Origin: a virus
IMG/VR virus record: IMGVR_UViG_3300010413_000018
Span: 1-64,000 of that record
DNA length: 64,000 bases
Direction: 5' to 3' (one strand)
Shown here: positions 6,319 to 18,632 of the stretch, piece after piece
How the letters are laid out: the number at the start of each line of letters is the position of its first letter
How positions within the stretch are numbered: position 1 is the stretch's first letter
Position numbers and translations under genes: made by a program
The notes under the pieces: model-generated
What the model was told of the DNA's origin: nothing
Database searches by the model: none
Seen by the model: only the letters and a program-made list of their open reading frames with translations

Positions 6319-6530
6319 TCGCCGATCACTTCCTTACGTAGCTTCTCCAACCGTTCTGCCATCGCCCAAACGTCGTACTCCTGTAAAGCTCGTTCAACAT
6401 CATCCTTAACCAACCAAAAAGCCGCGTTTAATGCTGGAGATACGTAACCGCGCCCTAAACACAGTTGACACGTGCCGATTGAAACGTACTGACAAAACTG
6501 CGCTGGGCACACTATCCGGCTCTTCCTCAC
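6315..6530 (-). CDS. ZR-family protein (ZR11), altered first knuckle
   Basis: 71 aa. The first knuckle is CPAQFC (8-13), with four residues between the cysteines instead of two. The second is normal, CQLC (21-24). AAFWLV follows, and the C-terminus is a charged helix LEKLRKEV. Metal binding may be changed or lost. Overlaps both neighbours by 4 nt. Confidence 0.8.
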   Translation of the reverse strand: MRKSRIVCPAQFCQYVSIGTCQLCLGRGYVSPALNAAFWLVKDDVERALQEYDVWAMAERLEKLRKEVIGE

Positions 6531-7085: not shown

Positions 7086-7383
7086 AATACCTCTTTCTTT
7101 GTTTTTTAGACAAACTAATCCCGTCTGGACTTTGCATCTTAAAGTAGCACCCATGATCAAAAAACTGATGAAACGGCATCTTTAGCCCATCGACTTGCGT
7201 TCTTATAGTCCATATTTCAGATACACTAACGCGCTCTACACTCAAACTGTCGCTAACAAGTAATAAGTACGCGGAAGCTAGTGCAGCCGATACTTTACGC
7301 TGCTGGCTACAAAGGAAGCACGTTCCTTTATGCTGCACATCTTTACAGCGCGGGCACGGTACCTTTTCATGATTTTTTATCAT
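7078..7383 (-). CDS. ZR-family protein (ZR14), extended C-terminus
   Basis: 101 aa. CPRC (10-13), CFLC (22-25), SAYLLL. About 35 residues more than the family norm follow the last helix, basic and aromatic, ending KKQRKRYFE. The extension overlaps ZR13's start region by only 8 nt, so it is not an overlap artefact. Confidence 0.8.
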   Translation of the reverse strand: MIKNHEKVPCPRCKDVQHKGTCFLCSQQRKVSAALASAYLLLVSDSLSVERVSVSEIWTIRTQVDGLKMPFHQFFDHGCYFKMQSPDGISLSKKQRKRYFE

Positions 7384-7585
7384 ATAATAAATCTATTTTC
7401 ATTTGGCTAACATCATCGATAGCCGGTGGAACGTCGGGCGTGTTCGCACACAATAGCGCGTAACCGATCATTATTATTTCCGGTATTGGCTTTCCGTGGC
7501 ACAGCCCACAGCCTTTCCACGCTGGAGTTTCTGGGCTTAAAATATGACACCCACAACGCGGGCATGTTAACGACGGATCGCTCAT
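7367..7585 (-). CDS. ZR-family protein (ZR15)
   Basis: 72 aa. CPRCGC (8-13), CGLC (26-29) then HGKPIPE. IGYALL follows. The linker holds a Trp (PAWKG). The C-terminal helix is QMKIDLLYDKKS. Overlaps ZR14 by 17 nt and the upstream non-ZR gene by 4 nt. Confidence 0.85.
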   Translation of the reverse strand: MSDPSLTCPRCGCHILSPETPAWKGCGLCHGKPIPEIIMIGYALLCANTPDVPPAIDDVSQMKIDLLYDKKS

Positions 7586-7770
7586 GAAGCCATCAGCTGA
7601 CGGTTAAACTCCACCGTTATTGGACCGCTGAACACTTCCCCACCGTCAGCATCGGTGCACACCATGTAGTCTTCCTCCGACACTGGGGCGATCTTCAGCT
7701 TTTCACCGTCAAACTCAATACGTACAAGGCGTCCGTCTTTTAGTTCGAGCGTTATTTTCGTCTCTTTCAT
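7582..7770 (-). CDS. Small non-ZR protein in the ZR chain
   Basis: 62 aa, not recognised and without cysteine pairs. It looks like a small beta-rich protein (ITLELKDGRLVRIEFDGEKL). TAGGAGTACCAA gives a good ribosome-binding site for the ATG at 7770. First gene of a minus-strand transcript ending in the ZR1-15 chain, back to back with the divergent lipoprotein gene at 7830. Confidence 0.8.
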   Translation of the reverse strand: MKETKITLELKDGRLVRIEFDGEKLKIAPVSEEDYMVCTDADGGEVFSGPITVEFNRQLMAS

Positions 7771-7799
7771 TTGGTACTCCTATGTAAAATTGCTACTAT
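7771..7799 (+). promoter_or_regulatory. Promoter for lipoprotein gene
   Basis: TTGGTA (7771-7776), 17-bp spacer, TACTAT (7794-7799) on the plus strand, about 30 bp before the lipoprotein start. Confidence 0.6.
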
Positions 7800-7829
7800 T
7801 TAGTTAATGCTCGGACGTTGGAGATTTGA

Positions 7830-8003
7830 ATGAAAAAAGTGATTTTCCTTTTGTTGGTCGCGGTTTCTTTACTAGGTAGCTGCTTGCTAATTGACTCAGA
7901 TATTGACGTCGACAGCGACATCACCATCAATAACGATCTTCCACCCAATAAACTAAATGTTGCTTTTGACGACGACGCTGGAGTAGATCCCGATCTGTTT
8001 TAG
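7830..8003 (+). CDS. Small predicted lipoprotein
   Basis: 57 aa: a short basic N-terminus MKK, hydrophobic core, then lipobox LLGSC with Cys18 as the predicted lipidated residue. The mature part is very acidic (repeated Asp) with PP. GGAG lies 7 nt before the ATG and a -35/-10 pair lies upstream. Likely exported and anchored in a membrane. Candidate roles are an outer-membrane spanin or a superinfection-exclusion protein; neither is shown. Its last 77 bases overlap the 3' end of ZR16 on the other strand. It is the only plus-strand gene within 3991-9909. Confidence 0.75.
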   Translation: MKKVIFLLLVAVSLLGSCLLIDSDIDVDSDITINNDLPPNKLNVAFDDDAGVDPDLF

Positions 8004-8250
8004 TGTAACCAGGCAACGGAATTCCCATTTCTTCCATAAACGCTTGCAAGTCCGGGCCAGTAGGTGCGCTCGCCCCAAGCTTTAGTGCAAACGCGGTCAC
8101 TACTGTTTGATCCAACTTTTTAGATCCACGGCACAACGGACACATATCACCTTTAAAAATACTTTTAGGGAATATGCGATAGTGGCCATCCGCTGTTGCC
8201 ATCAGTACAACTTCCCCTTTCCCACCACATAATGGACATTTTTCCATCAT
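7927..8250 (-). CDS. ZR-family protein (ZR16)
   Basis: 107 aa. CPLCGGKG (5-12) and CPLCRG (37-42), with a 28-residue linker. TAFALKL follows. The last 25 residues (QRRRQKQH and on) are antisense to the Asp-rich end of the lipoprotein gene, so this tail may be shaped by the overlap. Start overlaps ZR17's stop as ATGA. Confidence 0.8.
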   Translation of the reverse strand: MMEKCPLCGGKGEVVLMATADGHYRIFPKSIFKGDMCPLCRGSKKLDQTVVTAFALKLGASAPTGPDLQAFMEEMGIPLPGYTKTDRDLLQRRRQKQHLVYWVEDRY

Positions 8251-8396
8251 TTCTTTTTAGCTCCAAAGCGCTTAGCGATTCGTGTGAATTCGGTGTAATT
8301 CGGCAGCTTATCAACCGTGTCTACCAATATCAGGTAAGCGGCATGCAGAGCAGGCGTTACTTTTGATTTACCATTACAAATTGGACATGGCACCAA
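8247..8396 (-). CDS. Half ZR protein (ZR17), single CxxC
   Basis: 49 aa from TTG 8396 (GTG 8393 also possible). It keeps only one knuckle, CPICNGKSKV, then AAYLIL and the C-terminal helix. The codon chain up to the ZR18 stop has no second CxxC, so this looks like a ZR gene that has lost its first knuckle. Its stop is overlapped 4 nt by the ATG of ZR16, as between intact neighbours, which argues it is still translated. No clear ribosome-binding site. Confidence 0.6.
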   Translation of the reverse strand: MVPCPICNGKSKVTPALHAAYLILVDTVDKLPNYTEFTRIAKRFGAKKK

Positions 8397-8400
8397 CTCA

Positions 8401-8586
8401 TTATTTAAACATACTGACAAGTTCTCTAACCTGAGTTCCCGGTATTAAAGTTTTACGCTCATCTTCTAATAAAATGTACGCTGTACGCAATTCTTCAGAA
8501 ATCGGCTTACCTTTACATAATGCACACAACGCGTCTCTTCTCGGTGCGTAGCAGCCACAGCGCGGGCACGGTTTTTCATTCGCCAT
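8401..8586 (-). CDS. ZR-family protein (ZR18), near-minimal
   Basis: 61 aa, the shortest complete member. CPRCGC (7-12), CALCKGKPIS (21-30), LRTAYILL, then VRELVSMF. Because it has little else, it is a good core template for the family. Overlaps ZR19 by 11 nt. Confidence 0.85.
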   Translation of the reverse strand: MANEKPCPRCGCYAPRRDALCALCKGKPISEELRTAYILLEDERKTLIPGTQVRELVSMFK

Positions 8587-8890
8587 TATACTCGTCTTCT
8601 CCTACGTCAATGCGTAGTTGCTGTAAGTTAAAAAACAAGTCTGAGTACCTACGCCACCTTAGATCTCTATCAATCTGATCGACGACCAACAAATAAGCCG
8701 CGTTGAGTTCTTTGGATATCGCTTTGCCGTGGCATAACAAGCAACCCACCTCAATCTTACCGCATGTAGGGCACCCGCCGTACTTTAATAATTGCAGTTG
8801 CGGCTTAATAGGCAAACCGTGACAAAACGGGCACTCATTGATCAATACTTTATAAATAGTTTTACAATATGGACATCGAATAACGCGCAT
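8576..8890 (-). CDS. Double ZR protein (ZR19), four CxxC
   Basis: 104 aa with four knuckles: CPYC (6-9), CPFCHG (20-25), CPTC (40-43), CLLCHGKAIS (50-59). The first pair is followed by PIKPQLQLLK, a worn copy of the region before the AY helix; the second pair by AAYLLV. Best explained as an in-frame fusion of one truncated and one complete ZR unit. Shares a single base with the upstream gene. Confidence 0.85.
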   Translation of the reverse strand: MRVIRCPYCKTIYKVLINECPFCHGLPIKPQLQLLKYGGCPTCGKIEVGCLLCHGKAISKELNAAYLLVVDQIDRDLRWRRYSDLFFNLQQLRIDVGEDEYNGE

Positions 8891-9207
8891 TATTGAGTTG
8901 ATAAGTTTCTATTTCCTAGTTGTGCCAGCTCAAAGCGCTCTTTCCACTCTTCAAGCGAAATGAACGTTTCGCCATGAGTATCGTCCCATACGATCCACCC
9001 ACCGGCCATGTCTGACAGCCACTTCAAGGCTTCTAAGTCGCGCTCAGAAATCTGTCCTTGTCCGTAGTGAAACGGTGCCTCACGCAACATGGCGTACCAC
9101 AACGTGTACTCTAATCCCATCATCCATCCGGCGCAGTAGCACCGTTCGGAGATCTCACTCATGTACTTTGCTAATACAAACGCTTGAATGCTAAGTATAG
9201 GATGCAT
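8890..9207 (-). CDS. Phage hypothetical protein, Trp-rich
   Basis: 105 aa, not a ZR protein and not recognised. The N-terminal half is helical (CAGWMMGLEYTLWYAMLRE) with a Cys pair CYC. The middle has WLSDMAGGWIVWDD. AAGAAAGGAAATACC precedes the ATG. Leads the transcript into ZR19-16 with a one-base overlap (TAATG type). Confidence 0.8.
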   Translation of the reverse strand: MHPILSIQAFVLAKYMSEISERCYCAGWMMGLEYTLWYAMLREAPFHYGQGQISERDLEALKWLSDMAGGWIVWDDTHGETFISLEEWKERFELAQLGNRNLSTQ

Positions 9208-9244
9208 GGTATTTCCTTTCTTATTAAGTTAATGCCGTTCCAAA

Positions 9245-9469
9245 TTATTTTTGTACCTTATCTTGCGCTTTCAGCATTAAAATTAGGTCACGCGTCTCAA
9301 TGCCAGTCGGATGCGTATTCCCGTGCATAATCAAAAGGTACGCAGTTACGTAATACTCAGGAACCGGCACTCCACCGCACAATTGACACCAGGACGTGCC
9401 ATCAGCGCGTCTAATACCGCGCCCACGGCAACGCGGGCAGTTATAAGGCTCTAGTGTCGGTGTGCCCAT
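9245..9469 (-). CDS. ZR-family protein (ZR20)
   Basis: 74 aa. CPRCRGRG (11-18) and CQLCGG (28-33), linker with Trp. TAYLLI follows. The last helix LILMLKAQDK lacks the usual LR pair. Overlaps ZR21 by 29 nt. Confidence 0.85.
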   Translation of the reverse strand: MGTPTLEPYNCPRCRGRGIRRADGTSWCQLCGGVPVPEYYVTAYLLIMHGNTHPTGIETRDLILMLKAQDKVQK

Positions 9470-9656
9470 AGCGCTTTCTTAACTCTTCAATATGCTTAAC
9501 TTCGTTACACTCTAAGGCGCGCCCCCAGTAATCCGGGAATCCGTATAAACGATAAGCAGCAGCCAATTCAGTTGGAACGTAGCGCACTCCTGCGCACAGA
9601 TAACACGATCCTAAATACGTTCGACCGCAGTTACATCTAGGGCACCTTACATCCAT
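9441..9656 (-). CDS. ZR-family protein (ZR21)
   Basis: 71 aa. CPRCNC (5-10), CYLCAG (18-23), AAAYRLY, then an aromatic loop (GFPDYWG) and IEELRKRYG. First ZR gene of this minus-strand cluster; no strong promoter was identified in the 46 bp upstream. Confidence 0.85.
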   Translation of the reverse strand: MDVRCPRCNCGRTYLGSCYLCAGVRYVPTELAAAYRLYGFPDYWGRALECNEVKHIEELRKRYGHTDTRAL

Positions 9657-9702
9657 ATTAGGTGAATGGGCGACTGTAAAAGTTTTTGTAAACTTACGGC
9701 GC

Positions 9703-9909
9703 CTACCCAGTCGCGACGAGCTTCAGCGGCTCTTCCTGCTCTTCCGGGATGGGTTCCTTCTCCGGATCCGGATCAAAGTCATCGTCAAAGTTATCATCAT
9801 CCGAATCAAATTCCGCACAAATAGAGGCGCCGTCCGGTAAATGCACGGTTAAAACAGTCGGATGCAACGTACGAAAAAGCTTTATCAGTTCACGTAGTTC
9901 TTTCCGCAT
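9703..9909 (-). CDS. Small acidic protein
   Basis: 68 aa. A basic N-terminal helix (MRKELRELIKLFRTL) leads to a strand-like stretch and then a very acidic run (SDDDNFDDDFDPDPEKEPIPEEQEE is its composition, about residues 36-60). Not recognised; the tail could mimic nucleic acid or act as a linker. Divergent from the operon at 10045. Confidence 0.65.
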   Translation of the reverse strand: MRKELRELIKLFRTLHPTVLTVHLPDGASICAEFDSDDDNFDDDFDPDPEKEPIPEEQEEPLKLVATG

Positions 9910-9991
9910 ACAAGTATTGTGCCAGCTCGTATATTAATGATCAAGTTACTGGTTATTTTGATGTAAGTTACTGTAAGCATAATTATTTTAT

Positions 9992-10038
9992 TTGCAACGT
10001 TACTTTTTATTTGCAAACGTAACAAAATGAAGTATGCT
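9992..10038 (+). promoter_or_regulatory. Tandem-box promoter P1
   Basis: TTGCAA at 9992 and again at 10011 (19 bp apart, separated by ACGTTACTTTTTAT), then a 16-bp spacer and TATGCT (10033-10038). Start is predicted about 7 nt on, at the A of ATGGAC (10045). The proximal TTGCAA serves as -35; the distal box is extra and conserved in nine other promoters, so it may be an activator or operator site. Confidence 0.8.
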
Positions 10039-10044
10039 TTAAAT

Positions 10045-10368
10045 ATGGACAGCAACAAAGGAAATAAGATGGGAAACAGCGAAAAAACAACAATCAACAC
10101 CGTTTACTACACCGCTTACGCGTTTGCATCAACCCTAATCGCCGCCGTCGACGACAGAGACGCTGACTGGGATCTGGTTGACCAGACCGCAAAAGACACC
10201 GTAGCCGCGTGTGAAGAAGTTGTTCCTAGCCCAGCCCTTAGCCGCGCGCTCGACTACGCGGAAGCGATCGTGAACCGCGAAGCCAAAGCCACCTACGAAG
10301 CCATCAAAAACGTAGCCGGCCTTGACGACGCGCTTATGAGCGAGCTGTCCACCCTACTCTGCAACTAA
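10045..10368 (+). CDS. Phage hypothetical protein, paralogue of 19959
   Basis: 99 aa if started at ATG 10069 (AAAGGAAATAAG precedes it), or 107 aa from a leaderless ATG at 10045; both are in frame. An apparent ATG at 10027 lies inside the promoter and is rejected. Mostly helical and acidic. The segment VPSPALSRALDYAEAIVNRE matches LPGNALSNVLQIAESMTG of the protein at 19959, so the two are distant paralogues, each behind the same promoter type. Function unknown. Confidence 0.75.
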   Translation: MDSNKGNKMGNSEKTTINTVYYTAYAFASTLIAAVDDRDADWDLVDQTAKDTVAACEEVVPSPALSRALDYAEAIVNREAKATYEAIKNVAGLDDALMSELSTLLCN

Positions 10369-10381
10369 TAAAGGCTCAAAC

Positions 10382-10750
10382 ATGGACGAAAACACCAGAA
10401 ACAAAGTCGCGAAACTGCCTGTGTGGGCGCGCAACCTAATAAACCAGCTTGAAGTGGAAGTCGCTTGCTACCAGCACGAGATCGAAACCTTGAAGCAAGT
10501 AAAAACGTCGCGGATCTACTACGGTTTTGAAGCATCACAGCGTGGCATGATGCCGATCCCCGACGACGGTCCAGTCACCTTCATGATGGGTCAGCTAAAG
10601 CCAGAAAACGAGTTTTCGCGAATACGTATCAGCTACGATCGCGACGCGCTTGAACCGGACAAATGGCTGACTGTAAGCAGTGACCTCGGCGCCCTTCTGG
10701 TAAAGCCGTGGGCCAGCAACATGATCAAGATCAAGATCGAAGATCGGTAA
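10382..10750 (+). CDS. Conserved phage hypothetical protein
   Basis: 122 aa. Begins with a helical stretch LPVWARNLINQLEVEVACY followed by a predicted coiled coil, then a beta-rich domain (FSRIRISYDRDA, WLTVSSDLGALLVKPWASN). I recall similar proteins (LPxWAxxLIxxLE) in many phages, without a function. AAAGGCTCAAAC precedes the ATG. Its stop is followed directly by the ATG of ZR22. Confidence 0.8.
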   Translation: MDENTRNKVAKLPVWARNLINQLEVEVACYQHEIETLKQVKTSRIYYGFEASQRGMMPIPDDGPVTFMMGQLKPENEFSRIRISYDRDALEPDKWLTVSSDLGALLVKPWASNMIKIKIEDR

Positions 10751-11014
10751 ATGCCAAAGCAAGAAATGGTGATGTGCCCGCGATGCTACTTTTTTTGCGT
10801 GGCACCACCACGCCAAGGGGAAGAGTGTCATACTCAATGCGCGCTATGCGGTAATAAAAAGCAAGTTCCAGAAGATCTTGCTACCGCATACGCGCTAGTT
10901 GAAGACCACCTTCACGGCCACCCTACCACCAACGAAACGATCCGGCTAAAAAACGATTACTGGGGATGTGAATGGCGCCTAGAAATTGAACAGTCTAAAA
11001 ATCATCCCAAATAG
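10751..11014 (+). CDS. ZR-family protein (ZR22), plus strand
   Basis: 87 aa. CPRC (9-12) and CALC (30-33) with two spare cysteines (16, 26). KQVPEDLATAYALV is close to ZR9. Third gene of the P1 operon, immediately after the preceding stop. Its last 20 nt overlap the end of ZR23 coming from the other strand, so the two share a convergent junction without a terminator. Confidence 0.85.
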   Translation: MPKQEMVMCPRCYFFCVAPPRQGEECHTQCALCGNKKQVPEDLATAYALVEDHLHGHPTTNETIRLKNDYWGCEWRLEIEQSKNHPK

Positions 11015-11297
11015 ACTTATTTTTAACTAATCGGTACCACTTCGGTAAATCACGCGATAACCGTGCGGTTTCTTTATTGTTTTTCTCTCCGCTGTAAGTT
11101 TGGCGAACTTTCCGAGCTACGTCTTCATTCTTAAAACCTGACTTATCGTCACTGTCGTATAATAACCGATACGCGGTACTCATTTCTTCCGTAACCGATC
11201 GCGCTCCTTCGCATAACCGGCAGCCGTTAGGTCGGCGCCATGGGCTACCATGACACATCGGGCACGCTACGTTTTCTTTCTTACGCTTGGGCATCAT
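10995..11297 (-). CDS. ZR-family protein (ZR23), basic tail
   Basis: 100 aa. CPMCHGSPW (12-20), CRLCEG (26-31), STAYRLL. After the last helix a 30-residue Lys/Arg/Asn-rich extension follows (SGEKNNKETARLSRD). Overlaps ZR24 by 17 nt. Confidence 0.85.
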   Translation of the reverse strand: MMPKRKKENVACPMCHGSPWRRPNGCRLCEGARSVTEEMSTAYRLLYDSDDKSGFKNEDVARKVRQTYSGEKNNKETARLSRDLPKWYRLVKNKSIWDDF

Positions 11298-11514
11298 AAT
11301 CCTTTCTCAAGCTTAGTGCAGTTTCTCGCGAAACTGATTCTCCAACGTTCGAAATAAGCGCGTAAGCGGTTGCTAGATCTGAATTGACACTATTTGTCCC
11401 GTAGCATAAAACGCAGTCAGTAAACCCAAAATATCCGCCGTCAACGTCTACGCCACCACAGCGCGGACATTCCACCTTACTTAGATCGCCGTCGATTTTT
11501 CTGTCGCTGGGCAC
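11281..11514 (-). CDS. ZR-family protein (ZR24)
   Basis: 77 aa. CPRCGG (16-21) and CVLCYG (34-39); the linker is Gly/Asp/Phe-rich (GVDVDGGYFGFTD). NSDLATAYALI and SLRKDY follow. Overlaps ZR25 by 38 nt. Confidence 0.85.
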   Translation of the reverse strand: MPSDRKIDGDLSKVECPRCGGVDVDGGYFGFTDCVLCYGTNSVNSDLATAYALISNVGESVSRETALSLRKDYDAQA

Positions 11515-11716
11515 TAAAGTCCTTTTTCAACTGATAAATCTCGTTTGAAGATGGCGCCGTACCGTCTTCATGCTTCAAAAGTAAATACGCGGTTTCCAAG
11601 TTTTTTGAAACGTAGCCGCGCGTCCCACACAAAAAACACACGCACGTCTCGTTCCACGCGTTTTTCATACCGGCCGTACCGCCACAATGCGGGCAGTCTT
11701 TATGCTTCTTAGTCAT
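11477..11716 (-). CDS. ZR-family protein (ZR25)
   Basis: 79 aa. CPHCGGTAG (8-16), Cys25, CFLCGTRGYV (27-36), ETAYLLL. A basic tail (RQKNRRRSK) lies within the overlap with ZR24 and could reflect that overlap or nucleic-acid binding. Confidence 0.85.
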   Translation of the reverse strand: MTKKHKDCPHCGGTAGMKNAWNETCVCFLCGTRGYVSKNLETAYLLLKHEDGTAPSSNEIYQLKKDFSAQRQKNRRRSK

Positions 11717-11903
11717 AGCCTAAGTCTACCCTTACTTTTATTGTTTCTTCGATCGTTAACCAGCCACCGGTTGAAGCGTCAACTGTAAGCTTGTAAGCGG
11801 CAGCCAAATCTTCGGACACACGCCGCGTATTGGCGCACAACGAACACGGAACGCCGATCCCGTCGCAGCGCGGACACACTTCACTGTGGTCGTTGTTTAT
11901 CAT
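11709..11903 (-). CDS. ZR-family protein (ZR26)
   Basis: 64 aa from the ATG at 11903; starting at 11957 would add 18 residues that only retrace ZR27 in another frame. CPRCDGIG (10-17), CSLC (20-23), AAAYKL. Very short linker of six residues. Confidence 0.8.
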   Translation of the reverse strand: MINNDHSEVCPRCDGIGVPCSLCANTRRVSEDLAAAYKLTVDASTGGWLTIEETIKVRVDLGYD

Positions 11904-12159
11904 ACCCAAACAACCTGCGTAGCTCGCGCACTTCCCGCGCTTCCGGATGGGCCTCATCCTCTCCGATCAATAAAATATACGCTGTCTTCAGCTTTTCAGA
12001 GATCGGCTTACCCTCACACAGTGAACATTTACGGTACTGCCAGCCTTTTGGCCGCCACCCTTTCTCCGGACAGCGCGGGCACCCGTTTCTAATCCTTCCT
12101 TTGTTAACGCGTGGGGGGCGCCGTACGCGCCCCAAACCCCAGCCTCTAAGTCTTCGCAT
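11881..12159 (-). CDS. ZR-family protein (ZR27), Arg-rich N-terminus
   Basis: 92 aa. A strongly basic 25-residue N-terminus (RRLRGWGLGRVRRPPRVNKG), unlike other members, precedes CPRC (27-30) and CSLCEGKPIS (45-54). TAYILL and VRELRRLFGY follow; the C-terminal half closely resembles ZR18. The basic arm suggests RNA or DNA contact. Confidence 0.8.
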   Translation of the reverse strand: MRRLRGWGLGRVRRPPRVNKGRIRNGCPRCPEKGWRPKGWQYRKCSLCEGKPISEKLKTAYILLIGEDEAHPEAREVRELRRLFGYDKQRPQ

Positions 12160-12162
12160 GAT

Positions 12163-12495
12163 TTACCCGATCATCAACTCCGCGTAGTCCTCCAGCTCGC
12201 TAAGAACCTCCAAATAACCGGAAGAATGTCCTTCTTCCCACGCACGGTCAGCGGCTTTACGGCCGTTCTTGTGGTTTTCCAACCCACACGCGCGAATCGC
12301 TTCACATATGAACAACTCTTCAAGTCGCCTACTTTCCGCGCGGTACGCTCTATTCTTCTCCAAATACGCGTCACGAATATCTTTACGTTTCGCAGATTGC
12401 CGATCTGGCGCTTCCGGAAATGAAAGCTTGTTTTCAAACTCGCCGGCTTGAATACGCTCTTCTAACGCCTCTATTTTAACTCTATCTAGTGCCAT
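12163..12495 (-). CDS. Charged helical protein
   Basis: 110 aa from the ATG at 12495, preceded by AAGGAGAAAACA. All-helical, high in Arg/Glu/Lys, with a central YLEKNRAYRAESRRLEELF and a C-terminal helix ending in LSELEDYAELMIG. Not recognised. Begins the transcript into ZR27-23, driven by promoter P2. Confidence 0.75.
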   Translation of the reverse strand: MALDRVKIEALEERIQAGEFENKLSFPEAPDRQSAKRKDIRDAYLEKNRAYRAESRRLEELFICEAIRACGLENHKNGRKAADRAWEEGHSSGYLEVLSELEDYAELMIG

Positions 12496-12557
12496 TGTTT
12501 TCTCCTTATTGTTTGCAGTTACCACAAAATAAATCGGCTTTTCGCCTCACAGGTTTT

Positions 12558-12604
12558 AGTATAACTCATTTTGTTATGGTTGCAAATAAAAAGTAACGTT
12601 GCAA
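12558..12604 (-). promoter_or_regulatory. Tandem-box promoter P2
   Basis: Minus strand: TTGCAA (12604-12599), TTGCAA (12585-12580), 16-bp spacer, TATACT (12563-12558). The boxes are 19 bp apart as in P1. Here the leader is about 60 nt long before the AAGGAG site. Confidence 0.8.
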
Positions 12605-12607
12605 ACT

Positions 12608-13132
12608 TTATTCTTCTGCGTACACCCTTTTCCAACTTTCAATAAACGCCACGATCGCCTTGGCGCCTTCCGGGTTCATTGATATTACAGTATACTCAAA
12701 CGTAGGTGTAAAGTTGGATAGGTGCAGCCACCGTAAAAACTCCATCACCGTGCTGTTCTCGCCTAAGTCGTGATCAAGGTACATATGATCCGGTAAGCCG
12801 TACCTCTGCACGTGAAACTTAGCTAATTCCACACAGTTAGCCCAAATCACTAGCGCGTCCCTCGGTATGTCATGGTCTCGATCCTTTCCGGGATTGCGCA
12901 CGTCATCCAACCACAAAATGTAGCGGATCGGTTGATCCAATAAAACACTTTTTAATTCACGTGCTGACTGCCCGTCTAACCCGTAACAATTATCTGCCTT
13001 CTCTAGAGCGTACGCTGCAGCTAAAAACTCCGGCACTTCACCGGTATCCTCGCAAAAAAAGCATCGCCGTTGACTAAAAAGTGCCTTCGCCATGTAACAG
13101 TGTGGACATTTAGCATACCCTGGTTTCATCAC
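12608..13132 (-). CDS. ZR-cREC fusion protein (ZR28)
   Basis: 174 aa. Residues 1-65 are a complete ZR unit: CPHC (9-12), CFFC (24-27), AAAYAL, ARELKSVL. Residues about 70-170 match the pattern of the cyclic-phosphate-processing receiver-like family (cREC): ILWLDDVRNPG (72-82) with an Asp pair, a central W/A helix, and YLDHDLG (118-124) with Asp-His-Asp. The family assignment is from memory of its signature. cREC is predicted to act on RNA or nucleotide cyclic phosphates, so the fusion hints that ZR domains work near nucleic acids. Overlaps ZR29 by 4 nt. Confidence 0.8.
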   Translation of the reverse strand: MMKPGYAKCPHCYMAKALFSQRRCFFCEDTGEVPEFLAAAYALEKADNCYGLDGQSARELKSVLLDQPIRYILWLDDVRNPGKDRDHDIPRDALVIWANCVELAKFHVQRYGLPDHMYLDHDLGENSTVMEFLRWLHLSNFTPTFEYTVISMNPEGAKAIVAFIESWKRVYAEE

Positions 13133-13332
13133 TTTTCTCCGTACTGAGTGCGTAAATTATCAATAAGCTCAATTATTTGTAAACTCGTGCGCGCTGTATC
13201 AATCATCAAAATGTAAGCCGCGCGCGTACAAGGTTGTACTTTATGCTTACCTTTACATAGCAAGCAATTTTTGAACTTAATCAGCTCACAACGCGGGCAG
13301 TCTACTAGCTGTGTTTTCTTCTTCCAGTGCAT
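13129..13332 (-). CDS. ZR-family protein (ZR29)
   Basis: 67 aa. CPRC (12-15), CLLCKGKHKV (23-32), RAAYILM, IDNLRTQYG. A -35/-10 pair lies just upstream (13339-13366), and the predicted transcript start falls at or next to the ATG, leaving almost no leader. Confidence 0.85.
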   Translation of the reverse strand: MHWKKKTQLVDCPRCELIKFKNCLLCKGKHKVQPCTRAAYILMIDTARTSLQIIELIDNLRTQYGEK

Positions 13333-13338
13333 TAATGG

Positions 13339-13366
13339 TTAATACCCGCGCCACAACTTTTTGTAA
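13339..13366 (-). promoter_or_regulatory. GGGTATTAA-type promoter for ZR29
   Basis: Minus strand TTACAA (13366-13361), 16-bp spacer, TATTAA (13344-13339) preceded by CGGG. The same GGGTATTAA string occurs before the genes at 27372 and 21303, suggesting a second promoter class in the window. Confidence 0.6.
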
Positions 13367-13376
13367 ATATTTTTGT

Positions 13377-13423
13377 TTGCAACGTTACTTTTTATTTGCA
13401 CTAACCCTAAAATGAAGTATGCT
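13377..13423 (+). promoter_or_regulatory. Tandem-box promoter P3
   Basis: TTGCAA (13377), TTGCAC (13396), 16-bp spacer, TATGCT (13418-13423). Predicted start at about 13430, the A of the ATG, so the message is probably leaderless. Confidence 0.8.
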
Positions 13424-13429
13424 TTAAGT

Positions 13430-13645
13430 ATGGACAAACGCTACAGAAAAATCAGTCAAAAAGAACGACAGGCAATGATTGACGACAGAAAAGTACAACT
13501 TCGCTCATTATGCAACGAAGTAGGATCTTGTGCTAACGAAGAACGCAGAATTTTACAAGCGGACATCAAGCGGTTAGAAAACCGCAGCCGTAAAGTTGTT
13601 TTTGACACATACGAAAGAACTGTCTGTTACGCCAGTTCAAAGTAA
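13430..13645 (+). CDS. Small basic helical protein, leaderless start
   Basis: 71 aa from ATG 13430, the predicted first base of the transcript; no ribosome-binding site is present. A start at an earlier ATG would place coding sequence over the -10 box. Helical and rich in Arg/Lys/Glu (QKERQAMIDDRKVQLRSL) with three cysteines. Function unknown. Confidence 0.7.
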   Translation: MDKRYRKISQKERQAMIDDRKVQLRSLCNEVGSCANEERRILQADIKRLENRSRKVVFDTYERTVCYASSK

Positions 13646-13670
13646 AACCCTAACCCTTTCGGAGGTTTTC

Positions 13671-13943
13671 ATGAAAGTTTCTCTTACCGCGATCGCTACC
13701 CTAACCGCTTCCCCTAACAACACCGAGCTACGCGGCCAACGCGCTAGCCGCACGGTTGTTTTCGGCGAATTTTCGCGCTATTGCTTGTTCGCCGTGCATG
13801 TGCGCGAAGGTAACCGCGTTATGTGGATGGTCGAAGACGCCGAGACCGTAGATCCGGAAACCGGCCTATCGGAAGTTATTCGCCAGGCTTGGACTCCGCT
13901 TGAGGCAGTAAAAGGCCTGGAAGCTGAATTCGCAACGACGTAG
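13671..13943 (+). CDS. Phage hypothetical protein
   Basis: 90 aa from ATG 13671, which follows CGGAGGTTTTC; an earlier in-frame ATG at 13596 has no site and overlaps the preceding gene. Small alpha/beta protein (YCLFAVHVREGNRVMWMVED) ending in an acidic helix. Second gene of the P3 transcript, followed by a terminator. Confidence 0.75.
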   Translation: MKVSLTAIATLTASPNNTELRGQRASRTVVFGEFSRYCLFAVHVREGNRVMWMVEDAETVDPETGLSEVIRQAWTPLEAVKGLEAEFATT

Positions 13944-13965
13944 TTTGCACGTTTCCCAAAAGTTT

Positions 13966-13993
13966 AGGCGGCTCCTGGCCGCCTTTATTTTTT
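13966..13993 (+). terminator. Rho-independent terminator
   Basis: AGGCGG (13966-13971) pairs with CCGCCT (13979-13984), then TTATTTTTT. Ends the P3 transcript just before P4. Confidence 0.8.
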
Positions 13994-14008
13994 AATAAAA
14001 AAAGTTGT

Positions 14009-14055
14009 TTGCAACGTTACTTTTTATTTGCATATCCCACAAAATGAAGTATGCT
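14009..14055 (+). promoter_or_regulatory. Tandem-box promoter P4
   Basis: TTGCAA (14009), TTGCAT (14028), 16-bp spacer, TATGCT (14050-14055). Predicted start at 14062, the A of ATG. Confidence 0.8.
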
Positions 14056-14061
14056 TTAAAT

Positions 14062-14343
14062 ATGGACAAAAACACAAATAAAACCTACACCGTAGAAGTT
14101 TTTCGAAGCACTAACCGCATCAGCATCGTAACCGGTACGGTAGCGGAGCTGACCCGTCATTTTATGTACACGCTGCAAGCTGGAGCTTCCTACCAGCACG
14201 AGCGCGGCAACAAAAAGATCAACCTAGCGCCGAAGAACATAACCGCGCTTTTGGCAAACCTGAATAAAGCCAGCGCTAACGTTTCTTGCAACGGTAGCCG
14301 AAACAAAACCTACGCACTTTCCCAGTTTGACGAGCAAAATTAG
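14062..14343 (+). CDS. Phage hypothetical protein, leaderless start
   Basis: 93 aa starting MDKNTNKTYTVEVFRS at the predicted transcript start. Appears alpha/beta with a Lys/Asn-rich C-terminal half (NGSRNKTYALSQFDEQN). No recognised family. First of a two-gene unit with 14353. Confidence 0.7.
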   Translation: MDKNTNKTYTVEVFRSTNRISIVTGTVAELTRHFMYTLQAGASYQHERGNKKINLAPKNITALLANLNKASANVSCNGSRNKTYALSQFDEQN

Positions 14344-14352
14344 AGGCAACCA

Positions 14353-14628
14353 ATGAACAGCACACAAAAACATACAGTTCAAACGATAAACGACCTCCTA
14401 GTTCAAAACGGTGTTGACGCGCTAATTAAAGTAACGACCGGTAAGTGGCGCGCTTCTTGCACCAACTCCGCTGCTAAAAAGCAAACATACCTTAGCGGCC
14501 AGTGGGTGGCGTCTCACCGACGATCGCGCGGTACCGTTGAAGCGCTCCGGAACGCAGTAGTAGCGTCCGGCTTTTCAGTAGTTGATACTTGGGCCGACGA
14601 TTACAATGTCGGTGTCGTTTTTAATTAG
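14353..14628 (+). CDS. Phage hypothetical protein
   Basis: 91 aa. AGAGGCAACCA precedes the ATG. Begins with a helix (TINDLLVQNGVDALIKV) then a basic middle (TGKWRASCTNSAAKKQTY) and a hydrophobic end. Could be a small nucleic-acid-binding protein, but nothing decisive is seen. Promoter P5 begins 10 bp past its stop. Confidence 0.7.
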   Translation: MNSTQKHTVQTINDLLVQNGVDALIKVTTGKWRASCTNSAAKKQTYLSGQWVASHRRSRGTVEALRNAVVASGFSVVDTWADDYNVGVVFN

Positions 14629-14637
14629 ATATTTTAT

Positions 14638-14685
14638 TTGCAACGTTACTTTTTATTTGCACGTACCACAAAAGCGTGGTATACT
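14638..14685 (+). promoter_or_regulatory. Tandem-box promoter P5
   Basis: TTGCAA (14638), TTGCAC (14657), 17-bp spacer, TATACT (14680-14685). Closest of the set to a consensus sigma-70 -10. The leader ATGGACAATAACA is shared in spirit with the other transcripts. Confidence 0.8.
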
Positions 14686-14724
14686 TAAAGCATGGACAAT
14701 AACACTGCAACAAGGGGTAAAATA

Positions 14725-15228
14725 ATGTTACGAAAAGAAAGAAATCAAGAGTGCGCGCGAAATTGGCTTCAAACCAGCAAAAATACACTAATGAATCTTC
14801 TGGAAGGTGAAATGCGATCCGCACTATCAGCCGAAGCGATCGACCATATTGGGCGCGCCGTTCTCGAAATAAGCGACGCTCAGCGCGCGGTACGTAAAGC
14901 CAGCCAACCCGTAAAAAAAGAAAAAGCGCCGGAAGCGATCAAGTTCACCGACGTGATGAGCGTGTACTCCGGTAAAGCCGGGCACTGTTGCTGTGGTTGT
15001 TCCGGAAAGCACACTTACCGCTCCGAAACGCGGGAGCAAGCCGGTAAAAATCGTGGCTACGCCATAGGTGACGACGAGGTCAACGACAGCTCTGTAAAGC
15101 GTATTTTGAGCACCATGAATCAACTAATCGCCAGTAACAAACCGTGCGAAATTGATATGCCGTCCGACTGGGGGCACATAGCTATAACGTTCGGCTCGCG
15201 GCTTTACGTCGCCTACCTAAGAAAGTAA
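14725..15228 (+). CDS. Phage hypothetical with CCCGC motif
   Basis: 167 aa from ATG 14725 (AAGGGGTAAAATA upstream); an in-frame leaderless ATG at 14692 would add 11 residues. The N-terminal half is a coiled coil (EAIDHIGRAVLEISDAQRAV). The middle holds VYSGKAGHCCCGCSGKHTY, a cysteine cluster I recall from uncharacterised phage proteins, likely metal-binding. The C-terminal part is alpha/beta. Leads an operon with the SspB homologue and two ZR genes. Confidence 0.75.
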   Translation: MLRKERNQECARNWLQTSKNTLMNLLEGEMRSALSAEAIDHIGRAVLEISDAQRAVRKASQPVKKEKAPEAIKFTDVMSVYSGKAGHCCCGCSGKHTYRSETREQAGKNRGYAIGDDEVNDSSVKRILSTMNQLIASNKPCEIDMPSDWGHIAITFGSRLYVAYLRK

Positions 15229-15237
15229 CCTAACCTG

Positions 15238-15603
15238 ATGAACTCAGCTAAGAAACGCCTTGTAGAATATTTAATCCAGGCCGGATCCGTTTACGTCCAT
15301 CTGCTCACCCGAGCGGATGGCGTTTACGTTCCAGAGCACCTTAAAGCGACTCCCACTACCGCGTTACAGATCGGCTACAACTTTCCCGTGCCGATCCCGG
15401 ATCTAAAAATCGACGATACCGGTATAACCGCCACATTGTCGTTCAGTCGTACGCCGTACCTGTGCTTTGTACCGTGGGACGCAGTCTTCGCGATCACTAA
15501 CGAGGCCGGCCAAGGCGCACAATGGCCTATCGACGGCGAGCTGCTGCTTGAGCCGGAAGATAAACCCGAGGAACGGCGCCCCAAGCTTAGGTTGGTAAAA
15601 TGA
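15238..15603 (+). CDS. sspB: SspB-like ClpXP adaptor
   Basis: 121 aa, near the usual SspB size. Characteristic features appear in order: VYVHLLTRADGVYVPEHL (18-35), LQIGYNFPVPIPDLKIDD, ITATLSFSRTPYLCFVPW (62-79) and GQGAQWP, then a charged tail ending KLRLVK that may serve as the ClpX-binding segment. In bacteria SspB tethers ssrA-tagged and some other substrates to ClpXP. A phage copy could redirect host proteolysis or steer tagged phage proteins. The next ZR gene starts inside its stop (ATGA), so the two are translationally coupled. Confidence 0.85.
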   Translation: MNSAKKRLVEYLIQAGSVYVHLLTRADGVYVPEHLKATPTTALQIGYNFPVPIPDLKIDDTGITATLSFSRTPYLCFVPWDAVFAITNEAGQGAQWPIDGELLLEPEDKPEERRPKLRLVK

Positions 15604-15809
15604 GTCAAGAAACAAAACAAACAATGGCGTGCCCGCGCTGTACTGGCGTGGGTGCGTTTATACCTTGGCATAGTTGTGCACTTTGTCACAACCGTAAAGC
15701 AGTTCCAGTAGAGGTAGGTACCGCGTACAATTTGTTGCGCGACGACGGCGAACCCCACCTATCACAAGTTCGAACTGATTGGCTTTTAAGGCAATTTAAA
15801 AATGAGTGA
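15600..15809 (+). CDS. ZR-family protein (ZR30), plus strand
   Basis: 69 aa. CPRCTGVG (11-18), CALC (26-29) then HNRKAVPVE, GTAYNLL. The 4-nt overlap with sspB and 8-nt overlap with ZR31 put it in the middle of the P5 operon. Confidence 0.85.
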   Translation: MSQETKQTMACPRCTGVGAFIPWHSCALCHNRKAVPVEVGTAYNLLRDDGEPHLSQVRTDWLLRQFKNE

Positions 15810-16038
15810 AAAACTTGTTACCTGCCCGCGCTGTCAGTCTGCTTGGTGGCCAATGGATAAAGATCTGTTATTTCCCGGTTATTGTGCGCTCTGTCAAGGC
15901 GCGCGTACCGTTAGTGCCGCGCTATCAAGCGCCTACCAACTATTTCTCGACGAACGGTTTAAATACGATCAACACCCCGATGCAATTCTTACTCGGACGA
16001 TCGTCAAGACAGTAGACAATGACAGCAACGCGCGCTAA
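15802..16038 (+). CDS. ZR-family protein (ZR31), plus strand
   Basis: 78 aa. CPRC (8-11), CALCQG (28-33), SSAYQLF. The linker (SAWWPMDKDLLFPGY) resembles that of ZR9 (ALNWPYDGDRIYAGS), so these two are probably closer relatives despite lying on opposite strands. Overlaps the next gene by 20 nt. Confidence 0.85.
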   Translation: MSEKLVTCPRCQSAWWPMDKDLLFPGYCALCQGARTVSAALSSAYQLFLDERFKYDQHPDAILTRTIVKTVDNDSNAR

Positions 16039-16393
16039 ACGCCAAGAGCGCGATCGTCAAGCAATGGCTGCGGCGCCGTTAACAAAAGAACTCCATGATT
16101 TAATGCGACGCATGTACCGCTACTCAAAGCACCAGCCGGTAATAAAAAGCCGTAGCTCTTCGCTAAGCTATCAGTGTAACTTCCTCTGGACAGGTATGTA
16201 CTGGGTCGGAACTGGCGTTTACAAGCAACGTATTACCGCCATCAGGGATTTACGTCGGTGCGCCACCAAGCTACTTGAAGCGCAAGTTTGGAGCACCAGC
16301 ACGTACACACGGCTTATTGATCGCTTAGAAGCGATTGAAGTTGGCCTTGCCTTAATCAGTAGCCCAGCTTTAAAGAATATCTGCGATCGTTAG
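16019..16393 (+). CDS. Phage hypothetical protein, helical
   Basis: 124 aa. Basic N-terminal helix (TRAKRQERDRQ), Trp/Tyr-rich middle (FLWTGMYWVGTGVYK), and C-terminal LIDRLEAIEVGLALI. The last motif has a counterpart in the proteins at 17820 and 27772, so these ZR-linked genes may be distant relatives. Last of the P5 operon; its 3' end overlaps ZR32 by 24 nt from the opposite strand. Confidence 0.7.
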   Translation: MTATRAKRQERDRQAMAAAPLTKELHDLMRRMYRYSKHQPVIKSRSSSLSYQCNFLWTGMYWVGTGVYKQRITAIRDLRRCATKLLEAQVWSTSTYTRLIDRLEAIEVGLALISSPALKNICDR

Positions 16394-16633
16394 ATCAACG
16401 GTCAAGCTTAATACCGACGTCTCATTCAACGGGTACGTCTGTGTATCAGCTCCAAACACTAACTGAAACGCTGCAACACGCTCTTCAGTAACTTCTTTTT
16501 TACCTTTACAAAAAGTACAAATGTCACCGCGCGCGTTTTCCGGCCTCTGGCTCGCAATGTAACGTATTGGCCAGCCAAACTTGTAAACTCGGCCGTCGCC
16601 GCGACAAACCGGACACCTAAGCCGCTTACTCAT
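16370..16633 (-). CDS. ZR-family protein (ZR32)
   Basis: 87 aa from the ATG at 16633 beside the ZR33 stop. CPVCRGDG (7-14), CTFCKGKKEV (39-48), 28-residue basic linker (FGWPIRYIASQRPENARG), AAFQLV. The C-terminus is hydrophobic and lacks LR. Confidence 0.8.
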   Translation of the reverse strand: MSKRLRCPVCRGDGRVYKFGWPIRYIASQRPENARGDICTFCKGKKEVTEERVAAFQLVFGADTQTYPLNETSVLSLTVDLTIADIL

Positions 16634-16838
16634 CCCGATCCTCAAGTTCATAGCGCACTTGTCTTGCGTCTAAAATAGACGGTAAATAGCCGTCTTCAGT
16701 GCCCATAAAAGCGTACGCTGTCGCTAGCGCTTTATAGATGCGCTTTGCATCGTCGCACAACGCGCACGGTTCCCCGCAGCTGGTTTCGATAAGAAACGGC
16801 TTATAGCTACCGCCTTTACAGCGCGGACAATCAACCAC
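16626..16838 (-). CDS. ZR-family protein (ZR33)
   Basis: 70 aa. The knuckle starts at residue 4 (CPRCKGGS), then Cys21 and CALC (25-28). TAYAFM follows. C-terminal helix is acidic (RYELEDRDE). Overlaps ZR34 by 8 nt. Confidence 0.85.
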   Translation of the reverse strand: MVDCPRCKGGSYKPFLIETSCGEPCALCDDAKRIYKALATAYAFMGTEDGYLPSILDARQVRYELEDRDE

Positions 16839-17097
16839 GATGACTACTCTCTAAATCAGCGATCAACTGACTAACGAACTTGATTGTGCGCACAACTGGA
16901 TTCAAAAGTGCTATCGCGGTGTAGGCCTCTTCAGTTACCCGTTGTGCTCCCTGACAAAGTGGACACGGGATGGGCTCAGCGCCTCCTAAGTTATAGCGCA
17001 CCAATTGATCATTCCACGCCCAATAAATTCCATCAACGCAAACCACCGTCCCCACTCCTTGGCAAACCGGGCATCTATACGTTTTAACGGCCGTCAC
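16831..17097 (-). CDS. ZR-family protein (ZR34), long linker
   Basis: 88 aa. CPVCQGVG (9-16), Cys20, CPLCQGAQRV (45-54). The 32-residue linker contains YWAWNDQLVRYN. YTAIALL replaces AYxLL. Overlaps ZR35 by 4 nt. Confidence 0.85.
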   Translation of the reverse strand: MTAVKTYRCPVCQGVGTVVCVDGIYWAWNDQLVRYNLGGAEPIPCPLCQGAQRVTEEAYTAIALLNPVVRTIKFVSQLIADLESSHRG

Positions 17098-17372
17098 TGC
17101 GCCCTCCGATACGTTTTTCGTAGCTCGTCAATGTCTTCGAAAAAGTCAACCTTATTATTTAATGTTAAAGAAAACGCAATGGACAGCTCTTCGTCCACGT
17201 CACACGCGCCGTAACAAAGTGGGCATCTGCGCACTGCTGTAAATCCGTAGCGCTTCCATTTTTTACGATCTTTAAAAGTCACATTATGATACGGCGCTAG
17301 TGTCAAACGACTCACTCTAATTTCGCCAGCTCCTCCACATACCGGACACGTGACTTTTTTACTGCGTGGCAT
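17094..17372 (-). CDS. ZR-family protein (ZR35), basic long linker
   Basis: 92 aa. CPVCGGAG (9-16) and CPLCYG (50-55) with 37 residues between, very basic (FKDRKKWKRYGF). SIAFSLTL then IDELRKTYRR. The conserved CxxCxGxG of the first knuckle is the clearest DnaJ-like feature here. Confidence 0.85.
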   Translation of the reverse strand: MPRSKKVTCPVCGGAGEIRVSRLTLAPYHNVTFKDRKKWKRYGFTAVRRCPLCYGACDVDEELSIAFSLTLNNKVDFFEDIDELRKTYRRAQ

Positions 17373-17601
17373 ATGACTTCCTAAATTCTCTTAGTTCTTC
17401 GATTGTGGGATACCTATTAGTTTCCTTAAAAAGAGCATACGCGGTAAGCATCTCACGATCCGGTATTGCGCCTTTACCTTCGCATAATGGACAAGGGTAG
17501 CTATCCCACACTAAACGTTCTTCACCTTCACGTATGTACGCCACTGTCTTAAGCCCATGACAATGTGGACAATTCAATGGGCGCCCTCTACGCTTCGCCA
17601 T
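17359..17601 (-). CDS. ZR-family protein (ZR36), RGRP start
   Basis: 80 aa. MAKRRGRP resembles an AT-hook core and precedes CPHCHG (11-16) and CPLCEGKG (37-44). TAYALF and LREFRKSY follow. The RGRP tripeptide-plus-arginines suggests minor-groove DNA contact; this is a suggestion from the motif alone. Confidence 0.85.
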   Translation of the reverse strand: MAKRRGRPLNCPHCHGLKTVAYIREGEERLVWDSYPCPLCEGKGAIPDREMLTAYALFKETNRYPTIEELREFRKSYATQ

Positions 17602-17827
17602 AACCCATCTCCACGCGTAGCTGTTTAATATCAGCAGAGTTTAAGTAGGTATTCTGGCGCTTTAAAATGAATGCAGTTGCCAATAGCCTAATGACCTTCT
17701 GCTTGCCTAAACAAAGCGCACAAGGATCTGGCGTATACTTCCATTCTCCCGATTTCTTGTCGTAGCCAGCGTACACTCCGTAATATCCAGTGCCTTTACA
17801 GGCTGGACACTTTACCTTTTTAGACAC
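17588..17827 (-). CDS. ZR-family protein (ZR37)
   Basis: 79 aa. CPACKGTG (7-14) and CALCLGKQKV (36-45), linker Tyr/Lys-rich (YYGVYAGYDKKSGEWKY). ATAFIL and KQLRVEMGY follow. Overlaps the upstream non-ZR gene by 8 nt. Confidence 0.85.
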   Translation of the reverse strand: MSKKVKCPACKGTGYYGVYAGYDKKSGEWKYTPDPCALCLGKQKVIRLLATAFILKRQNTYLNSADIKQLRVEMGYGEA

Positions 17828-18218
17828 TAATACGATCTCCTTCTGCTAGTAAGCGGAGTGCGCCTTCTACCGCGTCCAATTGATCCCAAAACTCTTCTAC
17901 TCCGTTATGCTCCCACTGACTACATTTGATAGGCTGTACTTTTTTAAATACAATATCTGCATACGCACGAAGTAAGCGTAAACGAGAAAGTGCTTGAGAG
18001 CGAGATATAATCGCTGCAGTCGTCTTGAAGTAAAACCGTTCAAACGTAGCGCCGTACTGCGCTTCAAAATCTGCATGCCCCCGACATAAAAACCCTAGTT
18101 CAATGATGATCGTTTCAAGGCTATACACTTGGTTAAAATAATATGTATCAGGTACGGTTTGAGCACGCACCTTTAAAAAGTTTTCAACCTGCTCTGTAGA
18201 TAACCGCATCATCGGCAT
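17820..18218 (-). CDS. Phage hypothetical protein, helical
   Basis: 132 aa, no cysteine knuckles. Helical throughout; C-terminal WDQLDAVEGALRLLAEGD aligns by eye with LIDRLEAIEVGLALI of 16019. Contains IIIELGFLCRGHADFE. Overlaps ZR38 by 10 nt. Function unknown. Confidence 0.75.
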   Translation of the reverse strand: MPMMRLSTEQVENFLKVRAQTVPDTYYFNQVYSLETIIIELGFLCRGHADFEAQYGATFERFYFKTTAAIISRSQALSRLRLLRAYADIVFKKVQPIKCSQWEHNGVEEFWDQLDAVEGALRLLAEGDRISV

Positions 18219-18490
18219 TGTACGTCACTCCGTAACTGACGCAGCTCTTCATCTTCTGGAACTTCATCGTCATCCCAATCAGCGGTCACTAGCGCGTACG
18301 CGGCGTACAACTCATTTGAAATTAAACCTGCTCCTTCGCACAATCGGCAATTATTCCATATTATGTTTCGTTGTGCAGGTTCATTGACTGGTGTTTGATC
18401 ATAAATAAGCGTATAATCGCCGCCTCTCCCATCGCAAGCCGGACATCTATTTCTTTCTTCTTTTGTTGGCCTGATTTTCCTGCTTTGCAT
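18209..18490 (-). CDS. ZR-family protein (ZR38)
   Basis: 93 aa from the ATG at 18490; earlier starts would retrace the gene at 18447-18632. CPACDGRGG (16-24), CRLCEGAG (48-55), 28-residue linker, AAYALV. An acidic insert DWDDDEVPEDEE precedes LRQLRSD. Confidence 0.75.
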   Translation of the reverse strand: MQSRKIRPTKEERNRCPACDGRGGDYTLIYDQTPVNEPAQRNIIWNNCRLCEGAGLISNELYAAYALVTADWDDDEVPEDEELRQLRSDVQCR

Positions 18491-18632
18491 AAGCGATCGC
18501 TGCATCTCCGTCAAAGGTACTGAATGCACCATCCGGGCTAGTCCACACGAACGCATAGCTGTATTGTCCTTTACGCCGTTGTCGTCGTGTCCAGCCTGCT
18601 CGAAATAAGTATCCGACGTCTTCACTTCTCAC
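18447..18632 (-). CDS. Small hypothetical protein
   Basis: 61 aa, GTG start at 18632 overlapping the upstream stop by 4 nt. Sequence such as GYLFRAGWTRRQRRKGQYSY and FVWTSPDGAFSTFDGD looks like a small beta-rich basic domain; C-terminus KRRKK. It overlaps ZR38 by 44 nt in another frame. Unknown. Confidence 0.65.
   Translation of the reverse strand: MRSEDVGYLFRAGWTRRQRRKGQYSYAFVWTSPDGAFSTFDGDAAIAYAKQENQANKRRKK

Follow-up and report, generated by a model that had tools for sequence, protein, structure and literature searches.

A phage fusion protein of a DnaJ/anti-TRAP-type zinc ribbon and a cREC domain with altered pocket residues: a possible ligand-binding module

Main finding

The stretch of DNA analysed here (the window, 64,000 nucleotides) makes up the opening 64 kb of a virus record of 140,728 bp (140.7 kb; IMGVR_UViG_3300010413_000018) and carries, on the minus strand, a gene in which a complete zinc ribbon (ZR) unit drawn from the phage's own ZR family is fused to a cREC domain (cyclic-phosphate processing receiver, PF20274). 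The cREC half keeps the acidic residues of its predicted pocket and has lost a near-invariant histidine and a basic residue that mark its relatives. Our tentative preference, held at somewhat less than an even chance, is for a ZR-tethered cREC whose role would be to bind a ligand, either phosphate or nucleotide, and not to act as a standard phosphoesterase; whatever is said below of the function of the fusion is what we infer. The fusion offers a direct handle on what cREC domains do, and ties a very large, unexplained ZR gene family to phosphate or nucleotide recognition.

The fusion gene and its immediate surroundings

An uninterrupted open reading frame (ORF) at 12608-13132 (minus strand) encodes 174 amino acids from a GTG at 13132. 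The ATG at 13129 is the likelier start, since a ribosome-binding-site-like GGAG (13137..13140, minus strand) lies 7 nt upstream of it and it overlaps, as TGATG, the stop of the upstream stand-alone ZR gene (13129..13332, minus strand); the predicted protein is then 173 amino acids long (12608..13129), and its residue numbers are used here unless the 174-amino-acid numbering is stated. The protein consists of a ZR unit (CPHC...CFFC...AAYAL, residues about 7-42, 13004..13111) assigned with a ZR profile, a C-terminal tail of that unit with a predicted helix at residues 53-65 (12932..13003), found by alignment (A9) and structure models and present likewise in stand-alone paralogues, and the cREC domain (residues 68-173, 12611..12928), delimited by PF20274, the fold and the codons; all three lie on the minus strand. 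At the junction the codons CCG ATC CGC TAC ATT TTG TGG encode P67-I68-R69-Y70-I71-L72-W73, and Ile68 (ATC) occupies the position of the start methionine of stand-alone cRECs (e.g. MTWVLWLDD in contig L101). The simplest origin of the fusion is the merging of a ZR-cREC operon of the kind seen in contig L020 (see below).

A 25-bp repeated element (12581..12605, minus strand) lies in the gap that follows the fusion gene and is probably the promoter of the next gene. A repeat search placed the element, TTTGCAACGTTACTTTTTATTTGCA, at 9991, 12581, 13376, 14008, 14637, 20330, 24562, 25634 and 30619 (seven perfect copies and two with 2 mismatches; zero in shuffles), and it probably represents a family of phage promoters ahead of early genes. 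A scan of 12450-13500 for sigma-70-like promoters gave 3 sites against 1.7 expected, which was not significant.

The zinc-ribbon half

In alignment A9 the fusion shows both cysteine pairs (C8-x2-C11 and C23-x2-C26) followed by the AAYAL helix, and a PF20274 match comes after them; a full ZR domain preceding a cREC-like segment, as the original prediction had it, is thus what the gene encodes. A ZR profile built from 17 clear units of the record matched 58 of its 884 ORFs at E<1e-3, compared with 0/884 shuffled and 0/884 reversed ORFs. The 58 ORFs total 16,218 bp (53 on the minus strand, 5 on the plus strand) and occupy two end regions and one place at 27 kb (3991-18625 and 27458-27757 of the window; 122407-140601 of the record). 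Searching the record with A9 itself gave 60 places, although the 33 rows of A9 come from the record and match by construction. Among the 58, only the fusion has more than 60 amino acids after its ZR unit (131) and only the fusion has a recognisable fused domain. The nearest paralogues of the fused ZR were found at 122407-122592, 4232-4489 and 129503-129718 (best phmmer E 3.4e-9, in a small set), and this closeness to the phage's own paralogues indicates that the fusion drew on its own ZR family.

When compared with solved chains, the ZR profile matched the cysteine-rich domain of DnaJ (8.3e-5), UvrA (1.2e-4), an RNA polymerase construct (2.3e-4) and anti-TRAP (7.9e-4), and a Foldseek search with the ZR model returned anti-TRAP as its top two rows, weakly, at E 4.0 and 4.6. 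The best ZR paralogue scanned reached 22.5 bits with PF00684 (cut-off 32.7) and 21.4 bits with PF15777 (cut-off 32), while the fusion had no PF15777 (anti-TRAP) match listed at E up to 10. By these profile comparisons the ZR half is a DnaJ/anti-TRAP-type zinc ribbon. Other ZR arrays were sought over viral contigs with two DNA patterns, each fitting only a few of the phage's units: the first gave 3 loci, all lacking a ZR unit of the fusion's family, and the second gave 41 loci, all lacking an array. A tblastn search of a phage collection with two ZR proteins returned a single match (E 0.5).

The cREC half: family and fold

The C-terminal half matched PF20274 (cREC_REC) with 47.4 bits against a curated cut-off of 27 (E 3.1e-12, residues 72-165 in the 174-amino-acid numbering) and phrog_1479 with E 1.5e-12. 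PF20274 matched nowhere else in the record, and the score of the fusion is low beside those of the eight other cREC proteins scored (54 to 89.6 bits). Two separate structure predictions were made; a mixed ZR and cREC alignment (A7) had misaligned ribbons. The AlphaFold model of the fusion has a pLDDT of about 93-98 over most of residues 71-173, and its ZR part is unreliable (below 50 over residues 1-27). VIA-align superposed the model on the LuxO receiver (5ep0) with a Z of 10.1 and an rmsd of 2.5 over 93 residues, and every one of the 50 structural matches listed was a receiver domain. The family had originally been called from two motifs, ILWLDDVRNPG and YLDHDLG, both of which are present letter for letter, and the call is borne out by the profile match above cut-off and the receiver fold (Z about 10).

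Beyond residue 68 the model shows four strands, and its alignment to 5ep0 covers only residues 3-99 of that chain, which implies that it lacks the fifth strand found in true receivers; the cREC half is predicted to be a receiver fold that ends with strand four. In two-component receivers (REC) the fifth strand bears a conserved lysine, and that strand has no counterpart in the model of the fusion.

Changes in the predicted pocket

An alignment (A1) of ten rows, the window protein and nine phage cRECs found with it by tblastn, showed D75, D76, R78, D119, H120, D121, G123, S150, N152, P153 and G155 to be invariant. The acidic residues that form the predicted catalytic set of the family are kept in the fusion, both in LDDxR (D75-D76, 12902..12907, minus strand, invariant in A1) and in DHDLG (residues 119-123, 12761..12775, minus strand, invariant or nearly so in the alignments). 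The HSxNPxG motif, which we read as a cREC feature from the present alignments, is incomplete, the histidine kept by the nine other rows being replaced by Ile149 (12683..12685, minus strand). A second change is Asn98 (12836..12838, minus strand), where the family has Arg or Lys.

The retained acidic residues bear on whether the cREC fold could be only a protein-protein scaffold or dimerisation part, holding no ligand, in one special subunit of mixed ZR oligomers. The 58 ZR ORFs encoded together and the full unit and tail kept by the fused ZR would fit such a role, as would the trimers and dodecamers described for anti-TRAP, which belongs to the kind of small zinc protein matched by the ZR profile; a pure scaffold, however, need not keep D75, D76, D119, D121 and S150, and we regard this explanation as improbable.

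Both substitutions were then counted in larger sets. A scan whose pattern required the histidine gave 80 loci, which were excluded from the histidine count, and a second cREC scan, keyed on other motifs, gave at least 74 loci (77 aligned rows with the window, 68 of them distinct). Among the matches listed, His149 was kept in 74/76 other phage rows (the exceptions, L101 and L108, both have Leu) and Arg/Lys98 in 75/76 (the exception, the second L133 ORF, has Asn). In a bacterial-genome set (80 loci, 83 ORF rows), His149 was kept in all 80 scorable rows, while of the 78 rows that could be scored at position 98, 65 had Arg or Lys and 13 had Tyr or Thr; position 98 is therefore less strict than the phage set suggests, and its basic residue is dispensable in some lineages. 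The fusion has 12/14 motif positions intact. Only 4 of the 68 distinct rows, among the matches listed, miss two or more of the 14, and these include both ZR-fused rows (chance 0.0026, calculated post hoc). The protein closest to the window protein among the matches listed, that of L101 (45% identity), has also lost the histidine; as neither L101 nor L108 has any ZR, loss of the histidine is not specific to fusions. The branch of the window cREC is long (1.81) in a tree of 67 rows, which took 67 of 69 distinct domains and left out 2 shorter than 70 amino acids. A catalytic role of the family's histidine is putative.

Genome context and the case for an active enzyme

The cREC domain, termed 'experimentally uncharacterized' (PMC9503650), has been predicted to process 2',3'-cyclic RNA ends or ADP-ribose (ADPr) cyclic phosphates, a prediction based on its association with RNA ligases, sirtuins and Nudix proteins (PMC7824862, PMC9503650). 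The window record, which may be incomplete, gave no match to RNA_ligase (PF09414), RtcB (PF01139), Nudix (PF00293), SIR2 (PF02146) or 2H (PF13563) in searches whose positive controls matched; a search for T4 RNA ligase 1 (PF09511), which had no responding positive control, also gave no match, and the record yielded no tRNA. Pfam scans of 108 other record proteins (39 structural-region proteins excluded) returned none of these repair or NAD families, one set being represented by 25 of its 35 families listed.

Elsewhere such neighbours do occur. The Hallingskeid cREC has RNA ligase, Sir2 and Nudix genes upstream, the OC cREC is flanked by polynucleotide kinase and RNA ligase 1, and the cREC gene of L171 is directly followed by an ORF with a ligase motif, KLHGTNA, recognised by eye. 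Scans of 72 proteins encoded around eleven near-relative cREC loci gave Metallophos twice, RNase_T twice and one poly(A)-polymerase/CCA-type protein, and no RNA ligase among 25 of 30 families listed. RNA ligase scored over its cut-off in 4/9 other records, namely the four of 142 kb or more and none of the five of 17-64 kb; a tie between loss of the histidine and a missing RNA ligase is thus suggestive only, because the other ligase-free records are just 17-64 kb and length confounds the comparison.

Scans for phage relatives gave none with RecA and, with PolA, two short IMG/VR contigs (L095, 65% identical, and L096, 56%) without ZR-profile matches. The PolA ORF of L096 is longer (1167 amino acids), perhaps through an intein. 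In the window itself, a DnaB-like helicase at 48241-50610 is apparently interrupted by a Hint/LAGLIDADG intein (Pfam, assigned by eye); the far half of the record gave another Hint/LAGLIDADG signal.

These data allow the function originally proposed for the fusion, a catalytic nucleotide or RNA-end step with the ZR as binding or targeting part, to be weighed. It would require an active cREC phosphoesterase, targeted by the ZR and opening cyclic phosphates on RNA ends or ADP-ribose products, that tolerates Ile149 and Asn98. The fusion still has the acidic residues together with R78, H120, S150, N152, P153 and G155, bacterial cRECs vary at position 98, and RNA ligases are found in large phages that have near-relative cRECs (all four of those records being at least 142 kb), the L171 and OC arrangements pointing the same way. 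Yet the near-invariant histidine is lost, the cREC branch is long and the record matched none of the five repair and NAD profiles. The catalytic part of the proposal is weakened by Ile149, Asn98 and the failure to find RNA-repair or NAD-processing genes in the record, and we consider an active enzyme possible but doubtful; the part given to the ZR, binding or targeting, is plausible.

Other combinations of zinc ribbons and cREC domains

In a survey of 113 distinct cREC ORFs (from 165), the zinc motif used was found, among the matches listed, in a single ORF, that at 2070-3020 of L133 (IMG/VR 3300034039_000011), where a DnaJ-type motif (CHTCYGDG...CLDCNGKG) precedes the cREC. Like the window fusion, this ORF has its zinc motif N-terminal to the cREC and Asn at position 98; unlike it, it is 316 amino acids long with an extra C-terminal stretch, has 8/14 motif positions changed and adjoins an intact cREC gene at 2992-3339, and its 64-kb record has no ZR-profile match. 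Its cREC is 40% identical to that of the following intact gene and 22% identical to that of the window over the aligning stretch, which points to an independent fusion event, one that probably followed a tandem duplication. The arrangement at 2070-3336, a degenerate ZR-cREC fusion directly before an intact cREC, looks like duplication with new function, and the two copies form a natural matched pair for judging the importance of His149 and Arg98.

Unfused neighbours were also found. In L020 (5780-5989) and L105 (2789-2995) a DnaJ-type ZR gene lies directly upstream of a cREC gene and overlaps its start by 4 nt, an arrangement that indicates translational coupling. General zinc ribbons are not enriched beside cREC genes (2/127 adjacent small ORFs vs 25/1337 others); DnaJ-type ribbons are found in 2/127 vs 1/1337 (p 0.02), a weak result as the two are near relatives. 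In L016 (5728-6339; IMG/VR 3300049049_000146) a small zinc-finger-like segment is N-terminal to a near-relative cREC, as in the window fusion, but it is RanBP-type (E 0.028, below the Pfam cut-off) and the His and Arg are intact; a CheY-like receiver gene, recognised by eye, follows at 6388-6924. None of the 83 bacterial cREC rows contained a ZR fusion, and a viral scan with the single fusion protein gave no relatives of the whole fusion. In a tblastn search of the phage collection three records were covered over 80% (E 0.1-0.2), and these resolved into two genes, one for a cREC and one beside it, rather than fusions (two were examined, the third being the RefSeq twin of the second).

Two further arrangements were noted by eye. 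In L017 (2362-9433) a cREC gene lies within an array of about eight small paralogues with a KVLTTNGEIGW motif, a second case of a cREC in a small-protein array, with paralogues of another kind than ZR. In a Bacteroidetes MAG (L206, 2353-3282) a calcineurin-type phosphoesterase-like N-terminal part is fused to a cREC.

The gene could also be a recent, neutral fusion of ZR and cREC genes by read-through, with the cREC half eroding: the branch is long, two motif positions are lost, and the whole-fusion, RecA and PolA scans found no close relatives showing that the fusion was kept. Decay of this kind nevertheless has a poor chance of being correct, given a frame open over 173 codons, 12 intact motif positions, apparently normal translational coupling to the upstream gene and the independent fusion in L133.

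Proposed role of the fusion

Ligand binding is preferred because the protein keeps the acidic residues without the histidine and the basic residue, and because the one further DnaJ-type ZR-cREC fusion, among the matches listed, has changed in the same direction. It is also in keeping with the PF20274 score above cut-off, the receiver fold, the searches that found no RNA_ligase, RtcB, Nudix, SIR2, 2H or tRNA, and the ZR-profile matches to DnaJ and anti-TRAP. Against it, the intact state of the Asp residues, of Ser150 and of the greater part of the motif would equally follow from purifying selection for catalysis; position 98 varies in bacteria, L101 and L108 lose the histidine with no ZR attached, and the record may be incomplete.

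We picture an accessory phage protein that would have arisen by the merging of adjacent genes, a ZR gene of the phage's own family and a cREC gene. The DnaJ/anti-TRAP-type ZR half may serve as an oligomerisation or target-binding adaptor, and the cREC half, having lost the His and Arg/Lys that mark its relatives, would retain an acidic, probably metal-binding pocket able to hold a phosphate-bearing ligand, candidates being RNA ends that bear a 2',3'-cyclic phosphate and the phosphates of ADP-ribose or cyclic nucleotides. Its most likely mode of action would be to sense, sequester or shield this ligand, with the ZR placing it on a partner; standard hydrolysis is less likely. A broader proposal, which we rate as rather unlikely as a whole, is that phages have more than once made cREC into a binding module (a sponge, sensor or cap) carried by a DnaJ/anti-TRAP-type ribbon, with RNA ends or ligands of the cyclic-phosphate or ADP-ribose type as targets, giving up its catalytic signature, and that the present protein is one specialised subunit of a 58-member ZR system.

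Comparison with known systems

The ZR resembles anti-TRAP (PF15777) and DnaJ (PF00684) in its CxxC...CxxC pattern, the glycines after the second pair and the helix that follows, and differs from them in its extra helical tail and in that the ZR proteins scanned fall below both Pfam cut-offs. The central domain of DnaJ has four repeats (CxxCxGxG), whereas the ZR has two CxxC pairs.

The cREC half resembles the described cREC family in its profile score, LDDxR, DHDLG and receiver fold (PF20274; PMC7824862, PMC9503650). It differs from its relatives in the attached ZR, in Ile for the His of HSxNPxG and in Asn for Arg/Lys98, and the family's predicted genomic link to RNA-repair or NAD/ADPr genes was not seen in the window record, which may be incomplete. 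The excerpts available of the two cREC papers (PMC7824862, PMC9503650) mention no ZR fusion, and a literature search on cREC, PF20274 and cyclic-phosphate processing found no cREC biochemistry; the ZR-cREC architecture appears new, both kinds of domain being already known.

The array itself has a precedent in Bacillus phage G, described as having about 35 zinc-ribbon copies (PMC7824862). Its ribbons are of another type (best ZR-profile E in phage G 0.63; gp32 has a CPxC/CPHGC pattern), but phage G and the window phage are alike in the lineage-specific expansion of small zinc ribbons.
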